Shown: in pieces, positions 7,708 through 49,898 of the stretch | How the letters are laid out: the number at the start of each line of letters is the position of its first letter | How positions within the stretch are numbered: position 1 is the stretch's first letter | Assembly (NCBI RefSeq): GCF_022539505.1 | Contig: NC_061508.1 | Coordinates: 340,641,484 to 340,705,483 of the forward strand | Length of the DNA stretch: 64,000 nucleotides | From: Lolium rigidum | Lineage: Eukaryota; Streptophyta; Magnoliopsida; Poales; Poaceae | Direction: 5' to 3' | Program-made: the position numbers and the translations under genes | The notes under the pieces: generated by a model | Told to the model about the DNA's origin: nothing | Database searches by the model: none | The model's input: the letters and a program-made list of their open reading frames with translations, nothing else

Positions 7708-9044
7708 TCATTGGCCATGCAACTGCCAATGGTGATCAATCAGATCTTGGGTGAGCTGGTGATGAGTCTCGGCATTTTCAATGCCTCGATGAGCTGCAAG
7801 AAAAGCTTCAAGCCGATCAGGGTTCCTCTCGGGCTGCACTCGGGTGCCAACATTGTCATAGAAACATGGCAAGTTTAAACCTCTTTCATCTTCAATGATC
7901 ATGTTGTGAAGAATCACACAACATGTCATGACATCAACAAGAGTTTCCTTGTCCCAAAACCTAGCAGGACCCTTGACAATTGCAAACCTTGCTTGAAGGA
8001 CACCAAAAGCTCTCTCAATATCCTTGCGGCATGCCTCTTGATTTCTGGTGAAGCAAGCTTCCTTTCTTGTCAAAGGCCTATCCTTTTTCTCTTTTATGGA
8101 CTTGACAAGGGTTGCATAGTTAGGGTAAATACCATACTGTGAGATAGTACCCCATGGTGTACTCATTGTTCATAACTTTGTAGTTACAAGGTGGAGCATC
8201 ACCCTTAACTAGTCTTGCAAACAAAGGGGATCTATTCAAGATGTTGATGTCGTTGAGTGTCCCCGGCAATCCAAAAAAGCATGCCAAATCCATAAGTCTT
8301 GAGAGGCCACGGCTTCAAGAACAATGGTAGCATCACGGCTTTTGCCACAATACATGCCATGCCATGCTTTTGGACAATTTTTCCATGTCCAATGCATGCA
8401 ATCCAAACTACCAAGCATCCCCGGCCACCCCCTCTTTTCATTGATCTCCATGAGCCTTTTTGTATCATCCTCATTTGGAGCTCGGAGATACATCTCTCCA
8501 TACAACTTGATCACCATCTTGGCAAACATACGCACGCAATCCGTGGTTGTTTGCACACCAATGCGAAGGTACTCATCGGTATAATCTGCTGGTATACCGT
8601 AGGCAATAACCCTCATGGCGGCAGAAATTTTTTGGTATGGGCTAAATCCCATGACTTGGGCAGCATTTCTTTTTTGCTTGAAATAATTGCAATTTGCCTC
8701 ACAATCTTTGACGATTTTCTCGAACAAAGTCCTACGCATTCGGTACCGTCTACGGAAGAGGCGGGGAGGATAGGTCGGTACCTCGGCGAAATAATCTTGC
8801 ATCAGCTGCTCGTGGCCGAGCGCGCGGTTCCGCGGAATGCACATACGCCCCATCACGGATCCTTTCCGCCGATCCGAGCGGCTTCATGCGGTCCTCCGTT
8901 TGCTTCAATCCGAACAGGAGCAAGCATCATCTCCATCTCATCGTCGTTGAGCAGCTCCTCGATATCCGAATCGCCGGAATCCGACGACGACCAATCGGTG
9001 GTCGTCGCGTCCAAATCCGCCATGTGCACATCCTCCGAAGCCAT
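7708..9044 (-). pseudogene. Harbinger transposase (DDE_Tnp_4/HARBI1-like), frameshifted
   Basis: Transposase of the nuclease DDE superfamily that would cut and integrate the element. N-terminal acidic exon-like part from ATG 9044 (MASEDVHMADLD) leads through small frameshifts into 8856-8236, with CIPRNRALGHEQLM, FRRRYRMRRTLFEKIV and the first catalytic Asp in GSLDCMHWTWKNCP. After a 1-nt loss in a T-run near 8275 the frame changes; the second Asp (NDIN) follows and another indel near 8140 leads to 8166-7708, which carries the Glu of RKDIERAFGVLQARF. The DDE residues are all present but at least three frameshifts prevent a full product. Confidence 0.88.
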
Positions 9045-20854: not shown

Positions 20855-23800
20855 CTAAGATGAGTCGGCGGACCCATGCTTCGCCTTGGAATGATCTCTG
20901 AGAGCCATTGGGGAGCTGAAATGCCTGAAGAGAAGTGCATGTGTGAGGATGTATAACAGCATATACATGGTACTAACAACTTGAAAGAAAAGGAATGAGA
21001 CTTTGCCTGCTGCATAAACTGCAGGTATGAGACGTGGGCTGCTTTGACGCATGTTTGCTTCCAGCTGCCTTGACATAGTCACTTGTGTTACAAGCCTGTT
21101 CTCCTGAATAACGGATCGCGACAATCTAGTGAGATTTATGTGCCAGTTAAAGGAGAGTGCGAGTTCAGCAGGTTAGAAATCAAAAGAAGCCCTTCGCACC
21201 AGTTTTGTTGCTCGTAGTTTGTGTTTCTATCTTTGTCTTCTTCCCCTGAGGTGCCTTCGGCAGTGTTCCCATTGGCCTTTTCTTGACCTTTGTTTCATGT
21301 ATATTAACAACACAAAAAAGAAAGAGTTTCAGGATTTTATAAAATGAAGAAGCATCAAAATAACAGATCTCTCTGAACAATCTCACACCTTTCTAGGAGA
21401 ATCCACATCTTCAGAACTCTCACTATCATCGTCATCACTTTGATTCTGTGTAACAGTCTTGCCCTGCAAATGTACTCAGCAATCAGCATACCAAATCCTG
21501 AAATCCATGTTAGGTTTTGGCATAAAAATAATACAATTCCCTAGGCCACTATTTCAGCTGCTACAGCCAACAACTACCATGGGTGGATCTGTCATCCAAG
21601 TAACAATAGCTACAGAATGTGGTAGGTTGCATAAAAGTTAGTAACTGCGTACACATGGAAGCCCAGATTTTGTACATAAAAAGAAAGCTGTCAAAAAGCA
21701 TGCACAGTCCACGCTAACTAACTTTAGTAACACAAAACTGGCATATGTTAGATTATACACTGAACTTGTTTACCAACATTCTTTTTTTTACACCTTTACC
21801 ATAGGGGCTTCCCCTACGGTAAAAAAAAAAAAAAAACAAAGTACAAGCAATCCAGAGAAAACAAATAATCAAGAAAACAATAGTCCCATCATCTTAATCT
21901 TAACAAAGTTACAAACCTTATCATCTCCCTTTGGCTTTGCAGGACTAGTTGGTTCCTCAACTGTATCCTTTGGTCCAGAGGATGGGGCATCAGCAGGCCT
22001 TGGTGCAGTAAGCTGATTGGCACCATGTGCAGCTTCATTTGAAAGTAAATAGAAACAAGCAAGTTAAGGGTCAATGTGGCATGTTCTAGTAGTAGAGCAA
22101 ATGCAAAGAGGACAAAGAACATCTTTGCTACAAATGAAATCTGCCTGGTGTCCTCAGCAAATAAATCATTCTGAACTAGTAAACAAGTAAACAAAAATTG
22201 TTATGCCTAGCAAAAGAACATACCATCCGTGTTGGGGTCGAGTGGAATTAGTAACGAAATATCCTCGTGAGATTCATTACCTGAAACATCAAATATAAGT
22301 AAGTTATATAACATGTTGCCAACTGTACGATGAAAATAGTATAGATACCCGATACCAAAATGAAAACAACATTTACCTTCTTTGGTAGATGTGTTATATG
22401 TGATTACAGACAGGAAACGGTTAAAGAACACAAGCGCATATTCAAGCTACTTACAAAGATTGAAGAAATCTAGAAAGATAAATGGAAGGATATCTGTCCA
22501 TAATATTGAATTTGTAGCCAGTAAAGCAGATGTTCGTGGTCCTTGACGAATGCCAAAGTTTAAACTTCGTTTTGAGCACCAGATTGGTTTCAAAATGAGG
22601 ATCATTATCAGCTGAAAGTGTTCCAAGCATAATACATTTATCATCAGTCTCCACGAAAACTTCCACATTCTCTTCAGTCCTAATCTCCAATGCTATCTGT
22701 AGTAAACGAAAAAAGAAAACGCCTAAAGAGTTGACAAACTTGATCCACCCTCAAGCGAGCTAAAAGGTCAAATATAAACATGTAAAGCGCACCTGCGATA
22801 AATGACGATATGACTTTCCTGGGTCACACTCTTTTTTCTCTCCAGGCTTGACGACAACTCCTAAAAATGTAAACATTCATGCATAGTAGCCATTCGTTAT
22901 TTCACAAATATGGTAGATTTGGGGAAAGGAGTATCTGTTGCTTTCGAAAGCACTCAAAAATATATACACCACACATTATTATGGCAAATACAATGGATAT
23001 TTCTTCACACAGAATAAAACCAATAAACTGGCGGTGCAAACACAGAATTACCAGAGCCTGCTTATCTTCAAAAGATATAGAGGTCACAGCAGAAAATATA
23101 AAATGTAGATTACTACTGGTGAAAGGTCAGACCATAATATACATCCAATCAAAAAGTGTCTTTGGCACATGAGCACCAGTGCTCCTGATTTTTAAAAATC
23201 ATATTTTTTGGATTCTAACAAAGTTGAAATTAAATATTCACATACATATAAACATTCCGAAGGTACGGTAGAAATTTTGGAGAAAAATATGTTGTAGTTT
23301 GAGCTATACAAAAAAGACAAATTTCTGACAAATATTTACCTATATACGTAGCCACAATTTTTTTTTCTGTAGCTCAAAATACAATGCAATTTCTACCGAA
23401 ACATCGCACGAATATTCAGTACATGTGTATGTATTCATGAAATAAATGTGACGATTTTTTGAAACGTAGATGTACAGTTTTAAAATATTTTCAAAACTAG
23501 GAGCACTGGTGCTCATGTGCACCAAATTTGCTTCCCAATCCAATCCGCTATTCATGAGATTGTTGTTCACACAAACCAGACAGGAAAAGCACAACAGAAG
23601 CAGGAAACCACGATACTCGCTCCAGATCAAGACACGGTACCCGCATTACTCTCTCCATATCTATCAGGCACAGTCAGATCAAAATACGGTACCCATATTG
23701 TTCTCTTCATATCAGGACAGCGTACCCAGATTACTCTCTCTGGATCAAGCCATGGTATGCAACCACAAGCCAACTAAATAATGCAATACTAATAACGGTT

Positions 23801-26800
23801 CCTAGGCGCGAACAGAAACCTCAGGAGTGCAGGTTGACAAATACAGGAAATTGGGAAACACAAGTATCTGTTGCTTTCCAAAGCGGCCAGAGAAATATAG
23901 ACAACACATGTTATTATGGCAAATAGAACGGGGACATTTCATCACACAAACAATCCATTGGCAGTGCAAACAGGCAATTACTACAGCATACTTATCTCCG
24001 AACGAAATACAAAACGCAACAAAACATATACTGTATCAAAGTTTATAACACATTACAATGTAGGTTACGAAATCCCCCCCCCCCCCCCATACAGACAAGG
24101 TCAAATGCACGATCAAATTATGGATTCAGAAAGTGGATACCCACCCCAGAAGATCTTTGCCTTCTTCTTGGAAGCAGATGTCTTCAAAGGAGTTTCGGCC
24201 ACCATGTTATTGCAATCCTCAAGCTGTGTAATGCACATTAAACATAGAAGAGAAATGTGAACGAACCCGACAATTGCAACAGCCAAAGACTAAATAGAAC
24301 AAAAATACAGTTACCTTTTGCTTTGCGACCCAGAAGAGCCCACGGGACTTGCCAGAGAAAAACTGGCAACTAGCCCGATTAGTGAAGATAAGTGGAGCAG
24401 TCAGTGGTGACATAGTTATCGGATTCACCTCTGGCTGCTTGGAATTGGCACCAGGCTTCTGCTTGGAAGTGCCACCGGGCACTTTTGCAAGCCTTTCCTT
24501 GTAGGACTGGTATTCAGGGTCCACTGCATTAACGGCAAAGTATAAGACCGAAAATACTCAAACCTTTCACTACTAGCTTTACATGTACGCAAGAACTTGT
24601 GTCTTTATGTGGCACCTAAATTAGTCAAAAACTACTACTGACCCAAGGTAATACACATGCTGCAAAAGCAAAATATAGTAAGACGAAGAAATGTCAAACT
24701 GTCTAAATCCGGAAACTTCAGTAACATGTCACATGTTAAAGCAAGAAAAATGTGAATTCCACAAAATCGTTATAATGTTAACTTTAAGTTTAAATAGCTA
24801 ATCAAAAGAACATACATGATAGTTTTGGAGTTGCCTTTAGATTAAGCTCATCAGGCTCTTTATACTCATTCAACTCTGCAAAATAAGAACAGAATATATA
24901 TCACCAACAAGGAAAAATACTATGCATGAGAAGTGAGAGAAAAAACGTTCATACCTTTTAGTTTAAAGTCAAACGGTTGGCTGGGCACCGTGTAGCCAGA
25001 GAAGAACACACTCGTCATATGTGAATTGTGTGATAAGCTAACCACATCATCAAACACGGAGTTTAACTGGGTACGATTGCAACCTACAAGCTCACCCAGT
25101 AATGTTCTCTCCTTACAGCGAAAATGAAAATTTATACTCTTGTTTGTGTTTTCCTTCGAGTAAACCTGCAGACCACACCAAAAATATTAAAAGCATTAAT
25201 AATATCGATTCAAGAAAAAGTTAACAAAATGAGATATATATCACACCTCCAAAAGGTGATACTCCTTTCCCTCGTCAAGAGGATTGATGTTAATCTCTTG
25301 AGATGGGGGCACCTCATCAACTACAAGCATAAAAGATTGTAAGATATGCCGCTCCCAAAATGATTAGTTTCCTTTTTATTGAAACATCTGAAAGAAATCC
25401 TTACTAAGGCCCTATTTATATCTTTTCAACTTTAATCAAATAAGTCAAGAAATAAAGGTACCCCTCAACCAAACCCTATTGCCTAATCTACCCAAAGCTA
25501 TGGTGCCACACCGACCGATGGAACCGTGTCAAGGGCGTCTGGTGAAAAGTACACACAAGATGTTGCATGTGTAAATATTAGCTTGGTACGTACCTCATCC
25601 TAGGAAGTTAACACCTATACAATTACTTCTGCATGTCTAGCATATGTCCCAAGTCCTCACACAAAACTAAGAGTGTAATTAGCCTTGGTGAAGCACCCTC
25701 ACATTCCATGTGAAGACCCTGCTTGACCTAGGTGAAGCGCCCTCACACTTCCGGTAATGAACCTGCTTGGCCCAAGTGAAACGCCCTCATGCTCCAGGTC
25801 AAGACCCCGCTCAACCAGGGTGAAGCTCGCTCCAAGTGAATCTCCCATAAGCAGAAGGGCATCACCCCACTACTAAGTCCCAAGGGCGGGCCTGAGACTG
25901 AACCCAAAATCATCTACTAGCCCTCACGTCTTGACCGCATTCCAAGCCAAGGTACATTCTTGGGACCAAGGAGCAAATGAAGACTAGATAGTTGTAAAAT
26001 AGCCAGAGTTGCCTCTCACAAGCATAGGGCCAAGTGAAAGTGTTGAAGGGCTGCATTGTTATATCAACTAAGTATTGTCATGCCCTAGAATATTCTTGTG
26101 AGTTTACTGAAATACCCATATGCCATGTGAAAAAGGACAACTGACATATATGTAATCTGCCTAGGGGCATGAAATGTAAATAGTCTGAACTTTCTCCAGT
26201 AAATTGAGAGGCATCAACCCTTTCTAAGTGGATGAGGGCATTTGATCAAAAGAAGTATAACCATTAGAAAAGCAAGGTCAGCGTACACACAACTGATAGA
26301 ACGCATACCGTCTATCCTCCAACAGTTGGCCCCAACAAATGTCACCTATACACCAACAAGTTTGGGTGCGAATCTGCATCGTGCGTTTTTCTGCATTAAG
26401 ATCTTAGCGTCTAATTCGCCGTAACCGTTGAAGCATTATCCAGAAAGAACTACGAGCATGCCAAGGCAGCCATATTGTGCATCCATAATGTACAAAATAA
26501 AGAAACAATAAGGCAACACCAGGAAACACCCAAGGAGGGCGTCGGAAGAGCAGCGAGAAGTCTAGCTCCTCTAATTGTAGATTGCTAAATACCGCACATA
26601 AATCAGCCAGTCCATGACATGGCGGACTGTGAACTTGTGAGGTTTCAGGATACTTTCTCAAGATACCAGCAAGTGTGGATGGACGAGTGGTTTGTGGGCC
26701 ACGTGCGAACAAGGAAACTCCAATAACACATCCAATTCCTTGCTGCCCTAGGAGACAATGCACCAGGAATAGTTTGACTAGAAAAACAGGAGAAAATCAA

Positions 26801-28055
26801 CCGGTGACAACATCGAAAGATGAGCATGGTCACGAGTAGCCTGCCTGGCTGTGCCCAATCAGGCCCTTCAACCACCATGGCCCAGGTTGCAACTACCAAG
26901 GAGCGTGCAACAGGCTCAAGGACTAGAGCAGCCAATGTGAACGAAGCAGGAGCTGTGGTTGTGCCCTAGCAGAAGTTCATTATTCGGTTTCGGCCACTCT
27001 AAGAGATCATGGCTATAAAAAAAACTACAATGGCTTGCAAAACAACAAAGAAGACTTAAATCAGAATGAGTAATAAGTAACATACCCCATAACTCTTTTG
27101 CTTCAAATGTGACAGGCTCCGGATTGGTGAAGCAAAACCCATTGAAGAACACGTCCCTCCTTACGGAGTCATGTGTGAGCACACAGTGTTCACCCAAAGT
27201 GAGCTCGAGTGGGATACATGGCTGTTTTGCAGATAAGGTACCGACCAGCACAGTACCCTCACAAGCACGCTTGACATATATGTGCGTGTCTTTAATGGTC
27301 TTCGCGTGCTTAGGACTCACTCCAGCCTACAATATAGTTCCAATCTGAAAGATGATTTGACTTTTTAATGAACTAGGTATGGCATGTAAATGGAAACGGT
27401 TGGGATATAAACCTCATAGATATAGAGTGGGAGCTTCTCTTGCGGCATCTGATTGAGGGGGAGTTTCTCCTTTGGCACCTCACTCTTCTTGTCATTTTCT
27501 TTCTCTGACTTCTCTCCATAAGTAAAACTTTCTCCCGGGCTCAGTTTTATGCCTGTAAGATAAAAAGAACATATGGATCAGGTTTTTGTTTTCAGATGTT
27601 TAAATATGGCACAAGTCATTTTCCCAAGCTTCGGAGAAAGTTTTATCTATCGAAATAAGTCCGAGGAAGGAAATAACGAGAAGAAAAATATCACATAATC
27701 AATTGGATGCAAAGATTGCAAGATCTTTTTATTCTCGAGGTATGTGATAAATGCGTAATCAGTGTTTTTTTCATTTTTAGTATCAGCTCCATTTTTAGCA
27801 TACTGGATTTACATGGCTGCCTTTGCAAGAAAACCACTATATCAAGAAGCATTCACACCCACAACATTATTGGACTATGAAATGCATTTAATTACCTCTC
27901 TTACACTTCAATGTTGCGCCACTCAGACCAAGCAACATGGTCGAGAGGGACTTCACATAGGGCTGTTGATACTGGCGTCTGACCATGGGAAAATGGTGTT
28001 TGTCTAAAATTGGGGACGATGCCATGACAGAAGTGGCAACCTCTTCATTGGACAT
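20855..28055 (-). CDS. HD2-type nucleoplasmin-like protein with three NPL units and a C2H2 zinc finger
   Basis: Plant HD2 (HDT) proteins are nucleolar chromatin factors. Seventeen coding exons join in frame (656 aa): 28055-27896, 27552-27413, 27326-27086, 25320-25247, 25165-24955, 24875-24816, 24523-24315, 24223-24145, 22860-22793, 22696-22494, 22399-22377, 22280-22224, 22032-21917, 21463-21389, 21287-21200, 21103-21007, 20924-20855. NPL-like units lie at about residues 54-168 (VLVGTLSAKQP, DVFFNGF), 181-265 (LLGELVG, SLSHNSHMTSVFFSGY) and 390-477 (FWGVVVKPG, YRHLSQ, LGTLSAD, CFTGYKF). An acidic tract follows (SDDDDSESSEDVD, 556-568), then a Lys-rich segment and a C2H2 finger C629, C632, H645, H650. 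Family members I know are about 250-310 aa with one NPL and start with M-x-FWG; here FWG is internal. Units 1 and 2 may not fold alike. The first exon is the least certain; joins are by eye. Confidence 0.75.
20925..21006 (-). other. Predicted GC-AG intron splitting the zinc finger
   Basis: The donor reads AG|GCAAAG and the acceptor CTTCTCTTCAG. Joining gives CSLCS-R-HFSSPMALRDH, a perfect C-x2-C-x12-H-x4-H finger. No GT donor would keep this frame. Confidence 0.7.
22400..22493 (-). other. Predicted U12-type AT-AC intron
   Basis: The 94-nt intron begins ATATCCTT, the exact U12 donor consensus, has TTCTTTAAC at 22428-22420 (U12 branch consensus TTCCTTAAC) and ends AC. Splicing joins ATG GAC AG to A TAT AAC and opens the 23-nt exon 22399-22377, whose end is in phase with the next exon. 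Branch-to-acceptor distance, about 21 nt, is at the long end. Confidence 0.65.
22494..22860 (-). other. NPL cassette 3 (two exons)
   Basis: Exons 22860-22793 (GVVVKPGEKKECDPGK, ending YRHLSQ) and 22696-22494 (VEVFVETDDKCIMLGTLSAD, KLWHSSRTTNICFTGYKF). This is the unit closest to canonical HD2, and the preceding exon supplies FW of the FWG start motif. The region where HD2 has F-D-L-V-F reads T-N-L-V-L, so the conserved Asp appears replaced by Asn. Confidence 0.8.
22905..23100. repeat. Intron direct repeat, copy 1
   Basis: Shares AAGTATCTGTTGCTTTCC-like and ATTATTATGGCAAATA-like strings in the same order and orientation with 23845-24045. Both copies lie in the 1.3-kb intron 22861-24144, one on each side of the MITE. 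Confidence 0.7.
23161..23526. mobile_element. MITE in an intron of the HD2-like gene
   Basis: Terminal inverted repeats of about 26 bp, with CACATGAGCACCAGTGCTCC near the left end and its complement near the right end, enclose an AT-rich 366-bp body. The TIR wording resembles Mutator-type MITEs of wheat, but no clear 9-bp duplication was found, so the superfamily is open. Confidence 0.75.
23845..24045. repeat. Intron direct repeat, copy 2
   Basis: Diverged copy of 22905-23100; see that entry. Confidence 0.7.
24955..25320 (-). other. NPL cassette 2 (two exons)
   Basis: Exons 25320-25247 (DEVPPSQEININPLDEGK, ending YHLLE) and 25165-24955 (INFHFRCKERTLLGELVG, VSLSHNSHMTSVFFSGYTV). Same phases as cassette 1: phase 1 outside, phase 0 inside. 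Confidence 0.75.
25687..25834. repeat. 44-bp tandem repeat in an intron
   Basis: Units begin at 25687, 25731, 25775 and 25819 (partial) with GGTGAAGC/AGTGAAAC followed by CCCTC. It lies in the 1765-bp intron between NPL cassettes 1 and 2 of the HD2-like gene. Confidence 0.8.
27086..27552 (-). other. NPL cassette 1 (two exons)
   Basis: Exons 27552-27413 and 27326-27086. The first holds GIKLSPGESFTYGEKSEK and ends LYIYE; the second holds THIYVKRACEGTVLVGTL and VFFNGFCF. Flanking introns are phase 1, the internal one phase 0. It is the most diverged unit: no His at the place where HD2 has HLSQ. Confidence 0.7.
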
Positions 28056-35085: not shown

Positions 35086-36676
35086 GTTGACACACGTCCG
35101 TTGGGAACCCCAAGAGGAAGGTGTGATGCGTACGACAGCGAGTTTTCCCTCGGCATGAAACCAAGGTTATCGAACCAGTAGGAGTCAAGGAACACGTGAA
35201 GGTTGTTGGTGAGGGAGTGTAGTGCGGCGCAACACCAGGGATTCCGGCGCCAACGTGGAACCTGCACAACACAATCAAATTACTTTGCCCCAACGTAACA
35301 GTGAGGTTGTCAATCTCACCGGCTTGCTGTAAACAAAGGATTAAACGTATAGTGTGGAAAATGATGTTTGTTTGCGAAGAACAGTAAAGAACAGATTTTG
35401 CAGTAGATTGTATTTCAGATGTGAAAGAATGGACCGGGGTCCACAGTTCACTAGTGGTGTCTCTCCCATAAGATAAATAGCATGTTGGGTGAACGAATTA
35501 CAGTTGGGCAATTGACAAATAGAGAAGGCATAACAATGCACATACATATCACGATGACTACTATGAGATTTAATCGAGGCATTACGACAAAGTACATAGG
35601 CCGCTATCCAAGCATGCATCTATGCCTAAAAAGTCCACCTTCGGAGTTAGCATCCGCACCCCTTCCAGTATTAAGTTGCAAACAACAGACAATTGCATTA
35701 AGTATGGTGCGTAATGTAATCAACACAAATATCCTTAGACAGAGCATTGATGTTTTATCCCTAGTGGCAATAGCACATCCACAACCTTAGAACTTTCTGT
35801 CACTGTCCCAGATTCAATGGAGGCATGAACCCACTATCGACCATAAATACTCCCTCTTGGAGTTACAAGTATCAACTTGTCCAGAGCCTCTACTAGCAAC
35901 GGAGAGCATGCAAGAACATAAACAACACATATATGATAGATTGATAATCAACTTGACATAGTATTCCATATTCATCGGATCCCAACAAACACAACATGTA
36001 GCATTACAAATAGATGATCTTGATCATGATAGGCAGCTCACAAGATCTAACATGATAGCACAATGAGGAGAAGACAACCATCTAGCTACTGCTATGGACC
36101 CATAGTCCAGGGGTGAACTACTCACACATCAATCCGGAGGCGATCATGGCCATGAAGAGTCCTCCGGGAGATGATTCCCCTCTCCGGCAGGGTGCGGAGG
36201 CGATCTCTCGAATCCCCCGAGATGGGATTGGCGGCGGCGGCGTCTCTGGAAGGTTTTCCGTATCGTGGCTCTCGGTACAGGGGTTTTCGCGACGAAGGCT
36301 ATAAGTAGGCGGAAGGGTAGGGTTGGAGGCGGCGCGGGGGGCCCACACCATAGGCCGGCGCGGGCCCCATGCAGGCCGCGCCGCCCTATGGTCTGGCCAC
36401 CTCGTGGCCCCACTTCGTATCCTCTTCGGTCTTCTGGAAGCTTCGTGGAAAAATAAGACCCTGGGCGTTGATTTCTTCCAATTCCGAGAATATTTCCTTT
36501 GTAGGATTTCTGAAACCAAAAACAGCAAGAACAAAGAATCGGATCTTCGGCATCTCGTCAATAGGTTAGTGCCGGAAAATGCATAATAATGACATAAAAT
36601 GTGTATAAAACATGTGAGTATCATCATAAAAGTAGCATGGAACATAAGAAATTATAGATACGTTTGAGACGTATCA
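35086..36676 (-). repeat. 3' LTR of element 1
   Basis: About 1.59 kb, aligning end to end with 40355-41956 with scattered substitutions. Minus-strand start is TGATACGTCTCAAACG. The other end is truncated by the N-run. Confidence 0.92.
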
Positions 36677-40354: not shown

Positions 40355-41956
40355 TGTTGGCGTGTTGACACACGTCTGTTGGGAACCCCAAGAGGAAGGT
40401 GTGATGCGTACAGCAGCGAGTTTTCCCTCAGTATGAAACCAAGGTTATCGAACCAGTAGGAGTCAAGGAACACGTGAAGGTTGTTGGTGACGGAGTGTAG
40501 TGCGGCGCAACACCGGGGATTCCGGCGCCAACGTGGAACCCGCACAACACAATCAAAGTACTTTGCCCCAACGTAACGGTGAGGTTGTCAATCTCACCGG
40601 CTTGCTCGTAAACAAAGGATTAAACGTATAGTGTGGAAAATGATGTTTGTTTGCGAAGAACAAGTAAAGAACAGAGTTTGCGATAGATTGTATTTCAGAT
40701 GTAAAAGAATGGACCGGGGTCCACAGTTCACTAGTGGTGTCTCTCCCATAAGATAAATAGCATGTTGGGTGAACGAATTACAGTTGGGCAATTGACAAAT
40801 AGAGAAGGCATAACAATGCACATACATATCACGATGACTACTATGAGATTTAATCAGGGCATTACGACAAAGTACATAGACCGCTATCCGAGCATGCATC
40901 TATGCCTAAAAAGTCCACCTTCGAGGTTAGCATCCGCACCCCTTCCAGATATTAAGTTGCAAACAACAGACAATTGCATTAAGTATGGTGCGTAATGTAA
41001 TCAACACAAATATCCTTAGACAAAGCATTGATGTTTTATCCCTAGTGGCAACAGCACATCCACAACCTTAGAACTTTCAGTCACTGTCCCAGATTCAATG
41101 GAGGCATGAACCCACTATCGAGCATAAATACTCCCTCTTGGAGTAACAAGTATCAACTTGGCCAGAGCCTCTACTAGCAACGAAGAGCATGCAAGAACAT
41201 AAACAACACATATATGATAGATTGATAATCAACTTGACATAGTATTCCATATTCATCGGATCCCAACAAACACAACATGTAGCATTACAAATAGATGATC
41301 TTGATCATGATAGGCAGCTCACAAGATCTAACATGATAGCACAATGAGGAGAAGACAACCATCTAGCTACTGCTATGGATCCATAGTCCAGGGGTTAACT
41401 ACTCACACATCAATCCGGAGGCGATCATGGCGATGAAGAGTCCTCCGGGAGATGATTCCCCTCTCCGGCAGGGTGCCGAGGCGATCTCCTGAATCCCCGA
41501 GATGGGATTGGCGGCGGCGGCGTCTCTGGAAGGTTTTCCGTATCGTGGCTCTCGGTACAGGGGTTTTCGCGACGAAGGCTATAAGTAGGCGGAAGGGTAG
41601 GGTTGGAGGCGGCGCGGGGGGCCCACACCATAGGCCGGCGCGGGCCCCATGCAGGCCGCGCCGCCCTATGGTCTGGCCACCTCGTGGCCCCACTTCGTAT
41701 CCTCTTTGGTCTTCTGGAAGCTTCGTGGAAAAATAAGACCCTGGGCGTTGATTTCGTCCAATTCCGAGAATATTTCCATTGTAGGATTTCTGAAACCAAA
41801 AACAGCAGAAAATAGCAACTGGCTCTTCGGCATCTCGTCAATAGGTTAGTGCCGGAAAATGCATAATAATGACATAAAATATGTATAAAACATGTGAGTA
41901 TCATCATAAAAGTAGCATGGAACATAAGAAATTATAGATACGTTTGAGACGTATCA
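40355..41956 (-). repeat. 5' LTR of element 1
   Basis: 1602 bp, TG...CA ends (minus strand TGATACGTCTC to GCCAACA), directly followed by a 13-nt spacer and the primer binding site. Confidence 0.92.
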
Positions 41957-47734: not shown

Positions 47735-49898
47735 GAGCATCTTCAGTCGCGTCCCCCAAAGCGTCCCTCAAAGCAATTTGAGGCACGCTGGGCGAAAAAA
47801 CGGTTTTAGCCGCGTCCCTCAAAACCCAATTTTGTCCGGCGCGTTCCGATACGGTGACCGGCGTCCCGAAGCCGTTTCCGTCCCACAGGGGACGCTCCGA
47901 GCACGCCGGACACAACGAAAAGCGAGGCGAAAACGCGGGCTCCCACATGTCGGCGACGTGTTGCATAAACCGTTGATTCGCGCCTTTTTTCAGGTCGCTC
48001 CTTCCTTCCCGCGCCTCCCACCCCACCGCCATCGCTGGATTTGCCGGCTGTTTGAGCGTCTGATCTCTTCTGAGAGTCGGCGCCATCGCCGCGGCTAGCG
48101 CTCCCGCCGGTCGTTCCGCCGCCGCCGCTTGGCCATCGCGTCCCAGAACGCGGCGTCAAATCCGCCCCACCTCCGCGCACACAAGGTGCTCGACGACTTG
48201 CCAGGTAGGCGCGATTGGCCGCTGTTCGTTGCGTCGTCTGCCTCGGCGCAATTTTAACCATTGATTTTGCTTTTAGACATGGATAGCGACGATGATGGTT
48301 GCCCTGCTGCTGGAGGACGAGCAAGCCTTCGACGACGACCTCCGGGAGCATTTGCTGATCATCGCGTCCCTCTAGGACATGCTTGACGCCGAGGCGGAGA
48401 AGAGGAAGAGTCCGCGCCGCGGAGGATCAAGGCCGGGGAGAAGGAAGTCCAAACCCCGACAGAGGATGGAGGGGCATGCCATGCTGCACAATGACTACTT
48501 CGTCGACGATGCAACACATGCCGACAATTTTCGGCGCCGGTACAGGATGAGCAAGGGGTTGTTCGTGAATATCCTCCATGACGTTCGAGAGTTCGGCCCT
48601 ACTTCAAGCTCAAGCTCGACGCTGTAGGCGTTGTCGGGTTCTCGTCGATTCAGAAGTGCACCGCCGCCATGAGGATGCTTGCATACGGAGCACCTGCCGA
48701 TACACAGGACGACTACCTTCGCATGAGTGAGTCTACCGCCATTGAGTGCATGTACAAGTTTTGCCGAGCTGTGGTGGGAAAGTTTGGCAAATACTACTTG
48801 AGAGGGCCAACCGAGGAAGAGATCGCAAGGATCATGGCACAAAATGCTGCCAGAGGACTTCCTGGAATGCTTGGAAGCATCGATTGCATGCACTGGGCAT
48901 GGAAGAACTGCCCGTTTGCTTGGCAAGGTATATAGAAAGGGCGTCATAGATATTGCAGTGTGGTGCTTAAAGCTGTGGCAGATTATGACATGTGGATTTG
49001 GCATTCTTTTTTTGCCATGGCGGGATCACACAATGACATCAACGTGTTGCAGCAGTCTCCGGTGTTCAGCAGACTAGTGGAAGGGCATGCTCCACCATGC
49101 AACTATGAGATCAATGGCCACGAATATACCAAAGGCTATTATCTAGCCGATGGTATATATCCAAAATGGACCACTTTTGTCAAAACAATCTCGATTCCAT
49201 CAGGTCTGAAGAATTTCCACTTTGCTACGCGACAGGAGGCTTGCAGGAAGGATGTCGAGCGGACATTTGGTGTGCTTCAAGCACAATTTGCCATTGTCCG
49301 GTACCCTGCTCTAAGCTGGTCTCACGACCAAATGTGGGAGGTGATGCAGGCTTGTGTGATCATGCACAACATGATCATCGAGGATGACCTCAAGAATCAT
49401 GCCAGGACACATGCTGGTCCCTATGAGTGTGAGGGCCCTCTTGCGGAGGTTGATCATGAGTTGCCTGCAGATTTTGTTGATTTCCTCGCCATGCACGCAG
49501 AGATCCGTGACAGCAATGTTCATGATCAACTTCAAGCTGATCTCGTTGAGCATTTGTGGAGGATCAAAGGAAATACTGTGACACCTTGATCTAGCATCTA
49601 GCCCTATTTATTATATTTGTTTACTTGTTTTATTGTTTATTGTATCTTAATTTAAAAACAATCCTCGCAAACATTTTTATTCATATGCTATATTTGATCG
49701 CCGCTACTCTGATCGCGACGATTCGGCGGGAACGATCTCTTTTGAATGCAACAATTTGAATTTCTGATTGGGGACGGCGTTTGGGGGACGCGGCTGGGGA
49801 GCAACGTCCCCCAAACACAGCACGAACAAAACATGTCCCTCAAACGCTCAATCCGGCACAGTTTGGAGACGCTTTGGAGAACGCGACTGGAGATGCTC
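47735..49898 (+). mobile_element. PIF/Harbinger DNA transposon (copy 2)
   Basis: TIRs GAGCATCTTCAGTCGCGTCC (left) and GAGCATCTCCAGTCGCGTTC (right, complement); TTA at 47732-47734 and 49899-49901. 2164 bp with a plus-strand transposase pseudogene. TIRs and transposase differ from copy 1, so it is a separate family. No MYB-like gene seen. Confidence 0.92.
48295..49589 (+). pseudogene. Harbinger transposase (DDE_Tnp_4), broken
   Basis: From ATG 48295 (MVALLLEDEQAFDDDLREH) the frame meets TAG at 48373-48375, continues with [19 protein letters not shown], shifts near 48590, reads [20 protein letters not shown] and the first Asp in [19 protein letters not shown], then TAG at 48933-48935. From 48936 it is open to 49589: HNDINVLQQSP (second Asp), RKDVERTFGVLQAQF (Glu) and a complete C-terminus. 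The DDE triad is preserved but the N-terminal half is disrupted. An intron-like acceptor TTTTAG lies just before 48279. Confidence 0.88.

Follow-up and report, generated by a model that had tools for sequence, protein, structure and literature searches.

The window considered here is a 64,000-nucleotide (nt) stretch of grass DNA (contig NC_061508.1), and the element in question is a gene of 17 exons on its minus strand, running from 28055 to 20855, whose 1971 nt of coding sequence specify 656 amino acids (aa) and a stop codon, with an in-frame TAG lying 5' of the first ATG. An earlier account made from the letters alone (the sequence-only reading) had described it as encoding an HD2-like chromatin protein with three nucleoplasmin-like (NPL) units, and the coordinates, strand, exon count, single frame and product length that it gave all hold: a protein from the database searches, P0001, is identical to the corrected model at 654 of 656 residues, the differences being T597M and V612I. 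Its supposition of a Triticeae source does not hold, as the nearest named relative is Lolium rigidum and the DNA is Lolium-like, that is, of the tribe Poeae. Four proteins recur below: P0001 and P0002, which share the fused arrangement, and P0018 and P0019, which are shorter proteins with two units. The exons, together with one unusual intron, are as follows.

Exon 1, 27896..28055, minus strand: start codon and lead segment (aa 1-53), in part conserved in P0002, P0018 and P0019
Exon 2, 27413..27552, minus strand: first half of NPL-like unit 1; enters in phase 1
Exon 3, 27086..27326, minus strand: second half of NPL-like unit 1; enters in phase 0, leaves in phase 1
Exon 4, 25247..25320, minus strand: first half of NPL-like unit 2; enters in phase 1
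Exon 5, 24955..25165, minus strand: second half of NPL-like unit 2; enters in phase 0, leaves in phase 1
Exon 6, 24816..24875, minus strand: linker, present also in P0018 and P0019
Exon 7, 24315..24523, minus strand: linker LDPEYQSYK...SPLTAPLIF..RASC, the last part common to the two-unit proteins P0018 and P0019
Exon 8, 24145..24223, minus strand: join exon, with internal Met372 (AACATGG), HDT2-tail-like ETPLKT...KKAKI, then the FW/G start of an HDT2-type NPL
Exon 9, 22793..22860, minus strand: first half of NPL unit 3; enters in phase 1
Exon 10, 22494..22696, minus strand: second half of NPL unit 3; enters in phase 0, leaves in phase 2
Intron 10, 22400..22493, minus strand: AT-AC, junction taken from P0001; matching protein junction in Lolium HDT2 proteins
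Exon 11, 22377..22399, minus strand: micro-exon of 23 nt
Exon 12, 22224..22280, minus strand: HDT2-type tail
Exon 13, 21917..22032, minus strand: HDT2-type tail
Exon 14, 21389..21463, minus strand: short acidic stretch SDDDDSESSEDVD
Exon 15, 21200..21287, minus strand: basic segment KVKKRP...GKKTKI
Exon 16, 21007..21103, minus strand: tail and first finger cysteines, GC donor at its end
Exon 17, 20855..20924, minus strand: remainder of the C2H2 finger and stop codon

Fourteen of the 16 introns are GT-AG, while intron 10 is AT-AC and intron 16 (21006-20925) is GC-AG; the splice sites are acceptable, as had been claimed, and their junctions are backed by P0001. The 94-nt intron 10 (22493-22400) has ATATCCTT at its 5' end and contains TTCTTTAAC, the end of which lies 20 bases ahead of the final base of the intron; we take these motifs to be the form of a U12-type intron. 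A 16-exon model using only GT and GC donors was rejected on losing the frame after exon 10, and the AT-AC model, derived from the P0001 junction, took over. Intron 8 contains an inverted repeat at about 23160-23530 with GGCACATGAGCACCAGTGCTCC ends, resembling a miniature inverted-repeat transposable element, and a diverged direct repeat (22901-23100 and 23834-24030) flanks it.

The protein search covered some 5.8 billion sequences and used as its query a first, partly wrong model, giving two proteins at E ≤ 1 among 6086 candidates. P0001 itself (656 aa, 17 member sequences) was found on two contigs, neither of them longer than 3886 nt. Since it matches the corrected model at 654 of 656 residues on contigs of that size, the introns have been removed in nature, the AT-AC and GC-AG ones included; and since its frame runs uninterrupted over no more than 3886 nt, as against a gene of 7.2 kb with 16 introns, it points to a product of spliced RNA, an intronless retrocopy being the other possibility.

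Turning to the units themselves, Pfam identifies unit 3 as an NPL domain (aa 390-475, 57.4 bits against a cut-off of 23.4), and this is the sole unit in the window protein with such a match; units 1 and 2 have none, and unit 2 of P0018 remains below threshold at 14.6 bits. The check by domain model that the sequence-only reading had proposed therefore succeeds for one unit in three, but for the other two the negative result is outweighed by profile-profile scores, by profile searches of the PDB and by structure. Aligned using hhalign to an NPL profile of 13 HDT proteins, unit 1 reaches a probability of 95.4 (E 5.6e-9) and unit 2 one of 97.5 (3e-11). Against a 14-row NPL profile (14 of the 19 proteins, leaving out P0018 and P0019 as well as P0002, P0008 and P0009, in which the NPL is incomplete in the annotation) the scores are 49.2 and 66.8, where the best of 100 column shuffles gave 15.7 and 15.6, and a reversed-alignment control gave E-values of 0.79 and 0.55 for units 1 and 2 respectively. 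When single sequences are searched against the PDB, Arabidopsis HDT NPL domains come top for all three units, at E 7.8e-12 for unit 3 and, weakly, at 0.12 for unit 2 and 0.19 for unit 1; when profiles are searched against all PDB sequences, unit 1 has four matches at E ≤ 10, all of them AtHDT1-4 (best 0.0035), and AtHDT1-3 account for three of the four matches to unit 2 (best 4.5e-7). An NPL fold was found for unit 3 and also for unit 2, in the latter case through its counterpart in P0018. For unit 1 the NPL fold is putative, with eight predicted strands and one helix beside its profile E-value of 5.6e-9; unit 1 of P0018 was left uninterpreted because the structure model of that protein is poor (mean pLDDT 33.2), and the VIA rows for the full model concern almost solely unit 3 and are uninformative on unit 1.

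Compared pairwise and with no composition correction, unit 2 shows 32% identity to unit 3 (E 8.3e-7) and unit 1 shows 27% (E 2.4e-4), while units 1 and 2 reach only E 0.066 with each other; because this last similarity is weak, it is on the resemblance of each to HDT NPL domains, and not on any match between them, that the identification of units 1 and 2 depends. Each of the three units occupies mainly two exons, the first entered in phase 1 and the second in phase 0, so that the gene structure agrees with the sequence homology (units 1, 2 and 3 are left in phases 1, 1 and 2 respectively, with the AT-AC intron following unit 3). Profile and exon phase thus support homology of units 1 and 2 to HDT NPL domains, as does the fold for unit 2, and the description of three NPL-like units in one frame can be kept. 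A fourth NPL domain, sought in the linker, was rejected (E 0.86 against the NPL profile).

The tail fits its earlier description less evenly. The finger CSLCSRHFSSPMALRDHSKAKH has the canonical C-x2-C-x12-H-x4-H spacing, so that "perfect C2H2" is right as a pattern, though the four listed Pfam finger models all fall below cut-off on the window protein. As to the acidic tract, a short and weak stretch, SDDDDSESSEDVD, follows unit 3, and the most acidic 30-aa window of the protein (net charge -8, starting at 421) lies within unit 3 rather than in the tail. Similarly, the basic tail is represented by a basic segment within a tail (aa 482-656) whose net charge as a whole is 0.

P0002 is isoform X2 of L. 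rigidum LOC124660761, a protein of 605 aa with 88% identity to the fusion protein, in which the join is kept; it retains 108 of 119 aligned residues in unit 1 and 87 of 95 in unit 2. At the point where it jumps within unit 3 the window has an in-exon GT (22635), and its gap would be due to alternative splicing or else to faulty annotation near the AT-AC intron; the isoform could be real alternative splicing that takes out one NPL domain. Among annotated HDT2 relatives, the Festuca entry P0008 includes LNMHLCSLTV...LSVITYNTSTK, which resembles a read-through of the window's intron 10, and the Puccinellia entry P0009 skips the segment matching the AT-AC intron; the segment seems to have been mishandled in both annotations.

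As to where the C-terminal half comes from, unit 3 and the tail are closest to Lolium perenne HDT2 (60% identity over 94% of the query), with other Pooideae next. In a tree of 15 of the 19 proteins (two Erythranthe sequences, P0018 and P0019 being left out), P0001 and P0002 group together (support 100/100) within a clade of HDT2 proteins from Avena, Alopecurus, Puccinellia, Festuca and Lolium (99/96). Lolium, Puccinellia, Avena and Alopecurus all belong to the tribe Poeae. Avena forms the first branch of this Poeae clade, at only 91/95, and the tree does not fix the order of the fusion copy, Alopecurus, Puccinellia and Loliinae HDT2. With the Pfam match in unit 3, this position inside grass HDT2 upholds the derivation from HD2/HDT proposed at the outset. 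The protein junction at the AT-AC intron is found in Lolium HDT2 proteins too, so that the HDT2 copy was probably made at the DNA level. A tblastn search of the window using P0001-P0017 (E ≤ 0.01) gave matches confined to 20855-28055, with no other HDT or NPL copy.

The N-terminal half has a different set of relatives. Its 392 residues, searched as a two-row alignment, gave four proteins at E ≤ 10 among 6210 candidates, namely P0001, P0002, P0018 (356 aa; 53% identity over 90% of the query) and P0019 from Puccinellia (404 aa; 45% over 84%). The last two terminate after the region of exon 7, with no HDT2 part. In Puccinellia, HDT2 (P0009) and the two-unit gene (P0019) lie on different contigs, of 151,803,130 and 220,446,683 bases respectively; in L. 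rigidum the fusion and an HDT2-like gene are probably on the same chromosome, both being listed on a contig of 361,799,021 bases. Between the two halves stands exon 8, which carries a Met in good context and an HDT2-tail-like stretch and ends in the FW/G of HDT2. Its 24-residue start was compared with 11 of the 15 proteins from the search with unit 3 and tail, and the shuffles (out of 2000) that reached the score numbered 0 for five of these proteins, 1 for three, and 2, 5 and 9 for one each; with the window's own exon 15 it gives no protein-level alignment, and at the DNA level a single 15-base block (2 of 2000 shuffles). That exon 8 might be the relic of an HDT2 tail exon is suggestive only.

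Putting this together, the reading that we prefer, with a probability of about 0.74, is of an intact and apparently transcribed fusion gene, whose exons 1-7 would derive from a fast-evolving Poeae gene for a product with two diverged HDT-type NPL domains, and whose exons 8-17 would derive from a DNA-level copy of HDT2, bringing an NPL domain, an intron of U12 form, a short acidic stretch, a basic segment and a C2H2 finger, to give an enlarged HD-tuin chaperone or repressor. The gene structure, the spliced frame, the homology of all three units to NPL domains, the existence of two-unit relatives lacking an HDT2 part and the descent of the C-terminal half from HDT2 are demonstrated. The simplest account of the origin of the gene is a fusion at exons 7-8 within the tribe Poeae, the direction of the event (fusion rather than fission) being what we infer. 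Fusion genes are common in grasses, 310 having been reported in four Oryza species (PMC9199173), so that it is not the fusion event that is unusual in this case but its outcome in terms of domains.

That said, events could have run the other way, the triple gene being older and the two-unit proteins being its truncated or split descendants. This is rather unlikely, but it draws on the same tree: because the order within the HDT2 clade is left open and branching after Avena is supported at only 91/95, the join may be older than the split of Lolium and Puccinellia, and P0018 and P0019 could represent short isoforms or genes divided in annotation. However, exons 8-17 fall inside Poeae HDT2 (99/96), which on the tree limits the age of the triple form to that of Poeae at most; among the 6086 candidates, P0001 and P0002 were the only fused proteins returned; and P0018 and P0019 end differently, with no trace of HDT2 in either. 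Somewhat less probable still is that the 656-aa protein arises as a minor read-through and that the main products of the locus are two, exons 1-7 giving a two-unit protein and exon 8 onwards an HDT2-like protein with a single NPL, begun at Met372, which does have a good start context (AACATGG) 18 residues ahead of the FWG of unit 3, two-unit proteins without the HDT2 part being known, moreover, from other sequences. Against this, intron 7 is just 91 nt long and so leaves little room for a separate terminator and promoter, the full join is covered by P0001, and the same join is annotated in L. rigidum P0002. Separate genes for the units had been named in advance as a finding that would overturn the three-unit protein, and protein searches with the full model, with unit 3 plus tail and with the N-terminal part returned no separate near-identical protein for either half, whether two-unit or starting from Met372.

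A decaying or non-functional chimera is improbable. Evolution has been fast (88% to L. rigidum P0002), the tract of acidic residues is weak, and half of unit 3 is absent from the annotated L. rigidum isoform X2; but 656 codons remain open across 17 exons whose splice signals are all usable, P0002 (counted as a second species) likewise keeps the fused frame, with units 1 and 2 conserved to the extent given above, and P0001 comprises 17 member sequences. Lastly, it is very improbable that units 1 and 2 are unrelated beta domains: the lack of Pfam matches, the 14.6 bits of P0018 unit 2, the weak single-sequence PDB matches and the weak similarity of unit 1 to unit 2 would all fit such a view, and it is these that the profile and structural comparisons outweigh.

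Several points nevertheless count against the fusion model or parts of it. The RNA status of P0001 and P0018 is deduced from their missing introns, the fusion was not returned under the name of Lolium perenne in protein searches although L. perenne HDT2 was, and P0002 lacks the second half of unit 3. The best PDB E-value for unit 1 is just 0.0035, and by profile units 1 and 2 resemble each other weakly (hhalign probability 6.9, E 0.0014). The steps concerning assembly and function would follow by analogy. Finally, in 18 of the 19 proteins (P0017 being left out), each scanned along its whole length, the most acidic 30-aa window has a charge of -6 to -10 in 11 Pooideae HDT2-type proteins, compared to -14 to -19 in four other grasses and one dicot, and such weak acidity would disfavour a strong histone-binding role; in P0018 and P0019 it is only -4. 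Pooideae HDT2 proteins P0003-P0011 themselves show -6 to -9, much weaker than the four other grasses and the single dicot, a difference that may matter for histone binding in Pooideae at large. AtHDT2 is reported to require its acidic tract in order to bind histones (PMC11993163).

What the fusion protein might do can be framed from its family. HD-tuins are classed as one of three kinds of nucleoplasmin, having an N-terminal domain, acidic tracts and possibly a finger (PMC11993163); in solution the NPL of an Arabidopsis HD2 fits a dimer of pentamers, and it gave no sign of deacetylase activity, which is disputed for the HD2 family itself (PMC4414354). By analogy, the fusion protein would be nuclear, and unit 3, as its best-preserved NPL, would still assemble as a nucleoplasmin-type ring, alone or mixed with separate HDT2; with unit 3 leading assembly, each subunit would add two diverged NPL modules and a finger, and the whole would function not as a deacetylase but as a histone chaperone or repressor of HD-tuin type, enlarged and probably modified.

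Nucleoplasmin-type proteins commonly reach five-fold symmetry by assembly of copies. It is conceivable, if doubtful, that a triple-NPL chain builds an assembly of a kind not described in the literature examined, either a unit-3 pentamer with a second, diverged ring made from ten tethered NPL modules, or a ring closed by several domains per chain. If so, either arrangement would determine how many histone sites there are and in what order, and the third domain could be included or lost through splicing around the U12-form intron beside unit 3. A natural three-NPL chain tests whether covalent linkage can alter five-fold symmetry and what additional modules do to histone binding; the locus also documents a young fusion between a chromatin protein and an unstudied gene in one grass tribe, with unfused relatives at hand for comparison. 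Among the papers listed by literature searches none described a multi-NPL HD2, which is weak evidence of absence, as subscription literature lay mostly outside the coverage.

Elsewhere in the window there are open reading frames at 7708-8883 and 48936-49589, which resemble pieces of PIF/Harbinger-type transposases. Largely the same open reading frame translation occurs twice, at 36118-36651 and 41425-41931, about 5.3 kb apart, perhaps as paired retroelement repeats. A scan of the whole window found no RNA family at gathering score and no tRNA.

Among known systems, those with other domain plans can be dealt with briefly. The classical nucleoplasmins NPM1 and NPM2 are not known to have an HDT-type finger. 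They are described as having one N-terminal core domain and acidic tracts, and the FKBP-type nucleoplasmins AtFKBP43 and AtFKBP53 as combining an N-terminal NPL with a C-terminal FKBP domain (PMC11993163, and for the latter also PMC9797600). In the fusion protein no FKBP family is found in Pfam at E ≤ 10. More generally, the nucleoplasmin-type proteins whose architecture is described in the first of these papers have one NPL per chain, at the N-terminus (PMC11993163).

Closer to hand, the two-unit Poeae proteins P0018 and P0019 share with the fusion protein units 1 and 2, the linker and a portion of the lead segment, but they lack the HDT2 part, their sequence ending after the exon 7 region. 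Grass HDT2 (HD-tuin/HD2/HDT), on the other hand, shares the FWGVVVKPGE start of unit 3, the tail, the protein junction at the U12-form intron and the C2H2 finger. The HDT-type NPL expected of an HD-tuin is present, by Pfam score and by position in the tree, and the C-terminal finger that some members have is present by pattern, the Pfam models falling below cut-off. The differences lie in length, which is 295-327 aa in eight of the nine Pooideae matches P0003-P0011 (barley P0010 has 386) compared to 656 aa here, and in the placing of the HDT2-type NPL, which is internal (aa 390-475) and stands behind two more NPL units. An HD-tuin carries an (M)EFWG-type NPL at its own N-terminus, and Lolium HDT2 starts MQQDLRFWG, whereas in the fusion protein FWG occurs at 390-392 behind 389 residues; because its HDT2-type NPL is thus not N-terminal, the protein is best filed as derived from HDT2 rather than as an ordinary HD-tuin.

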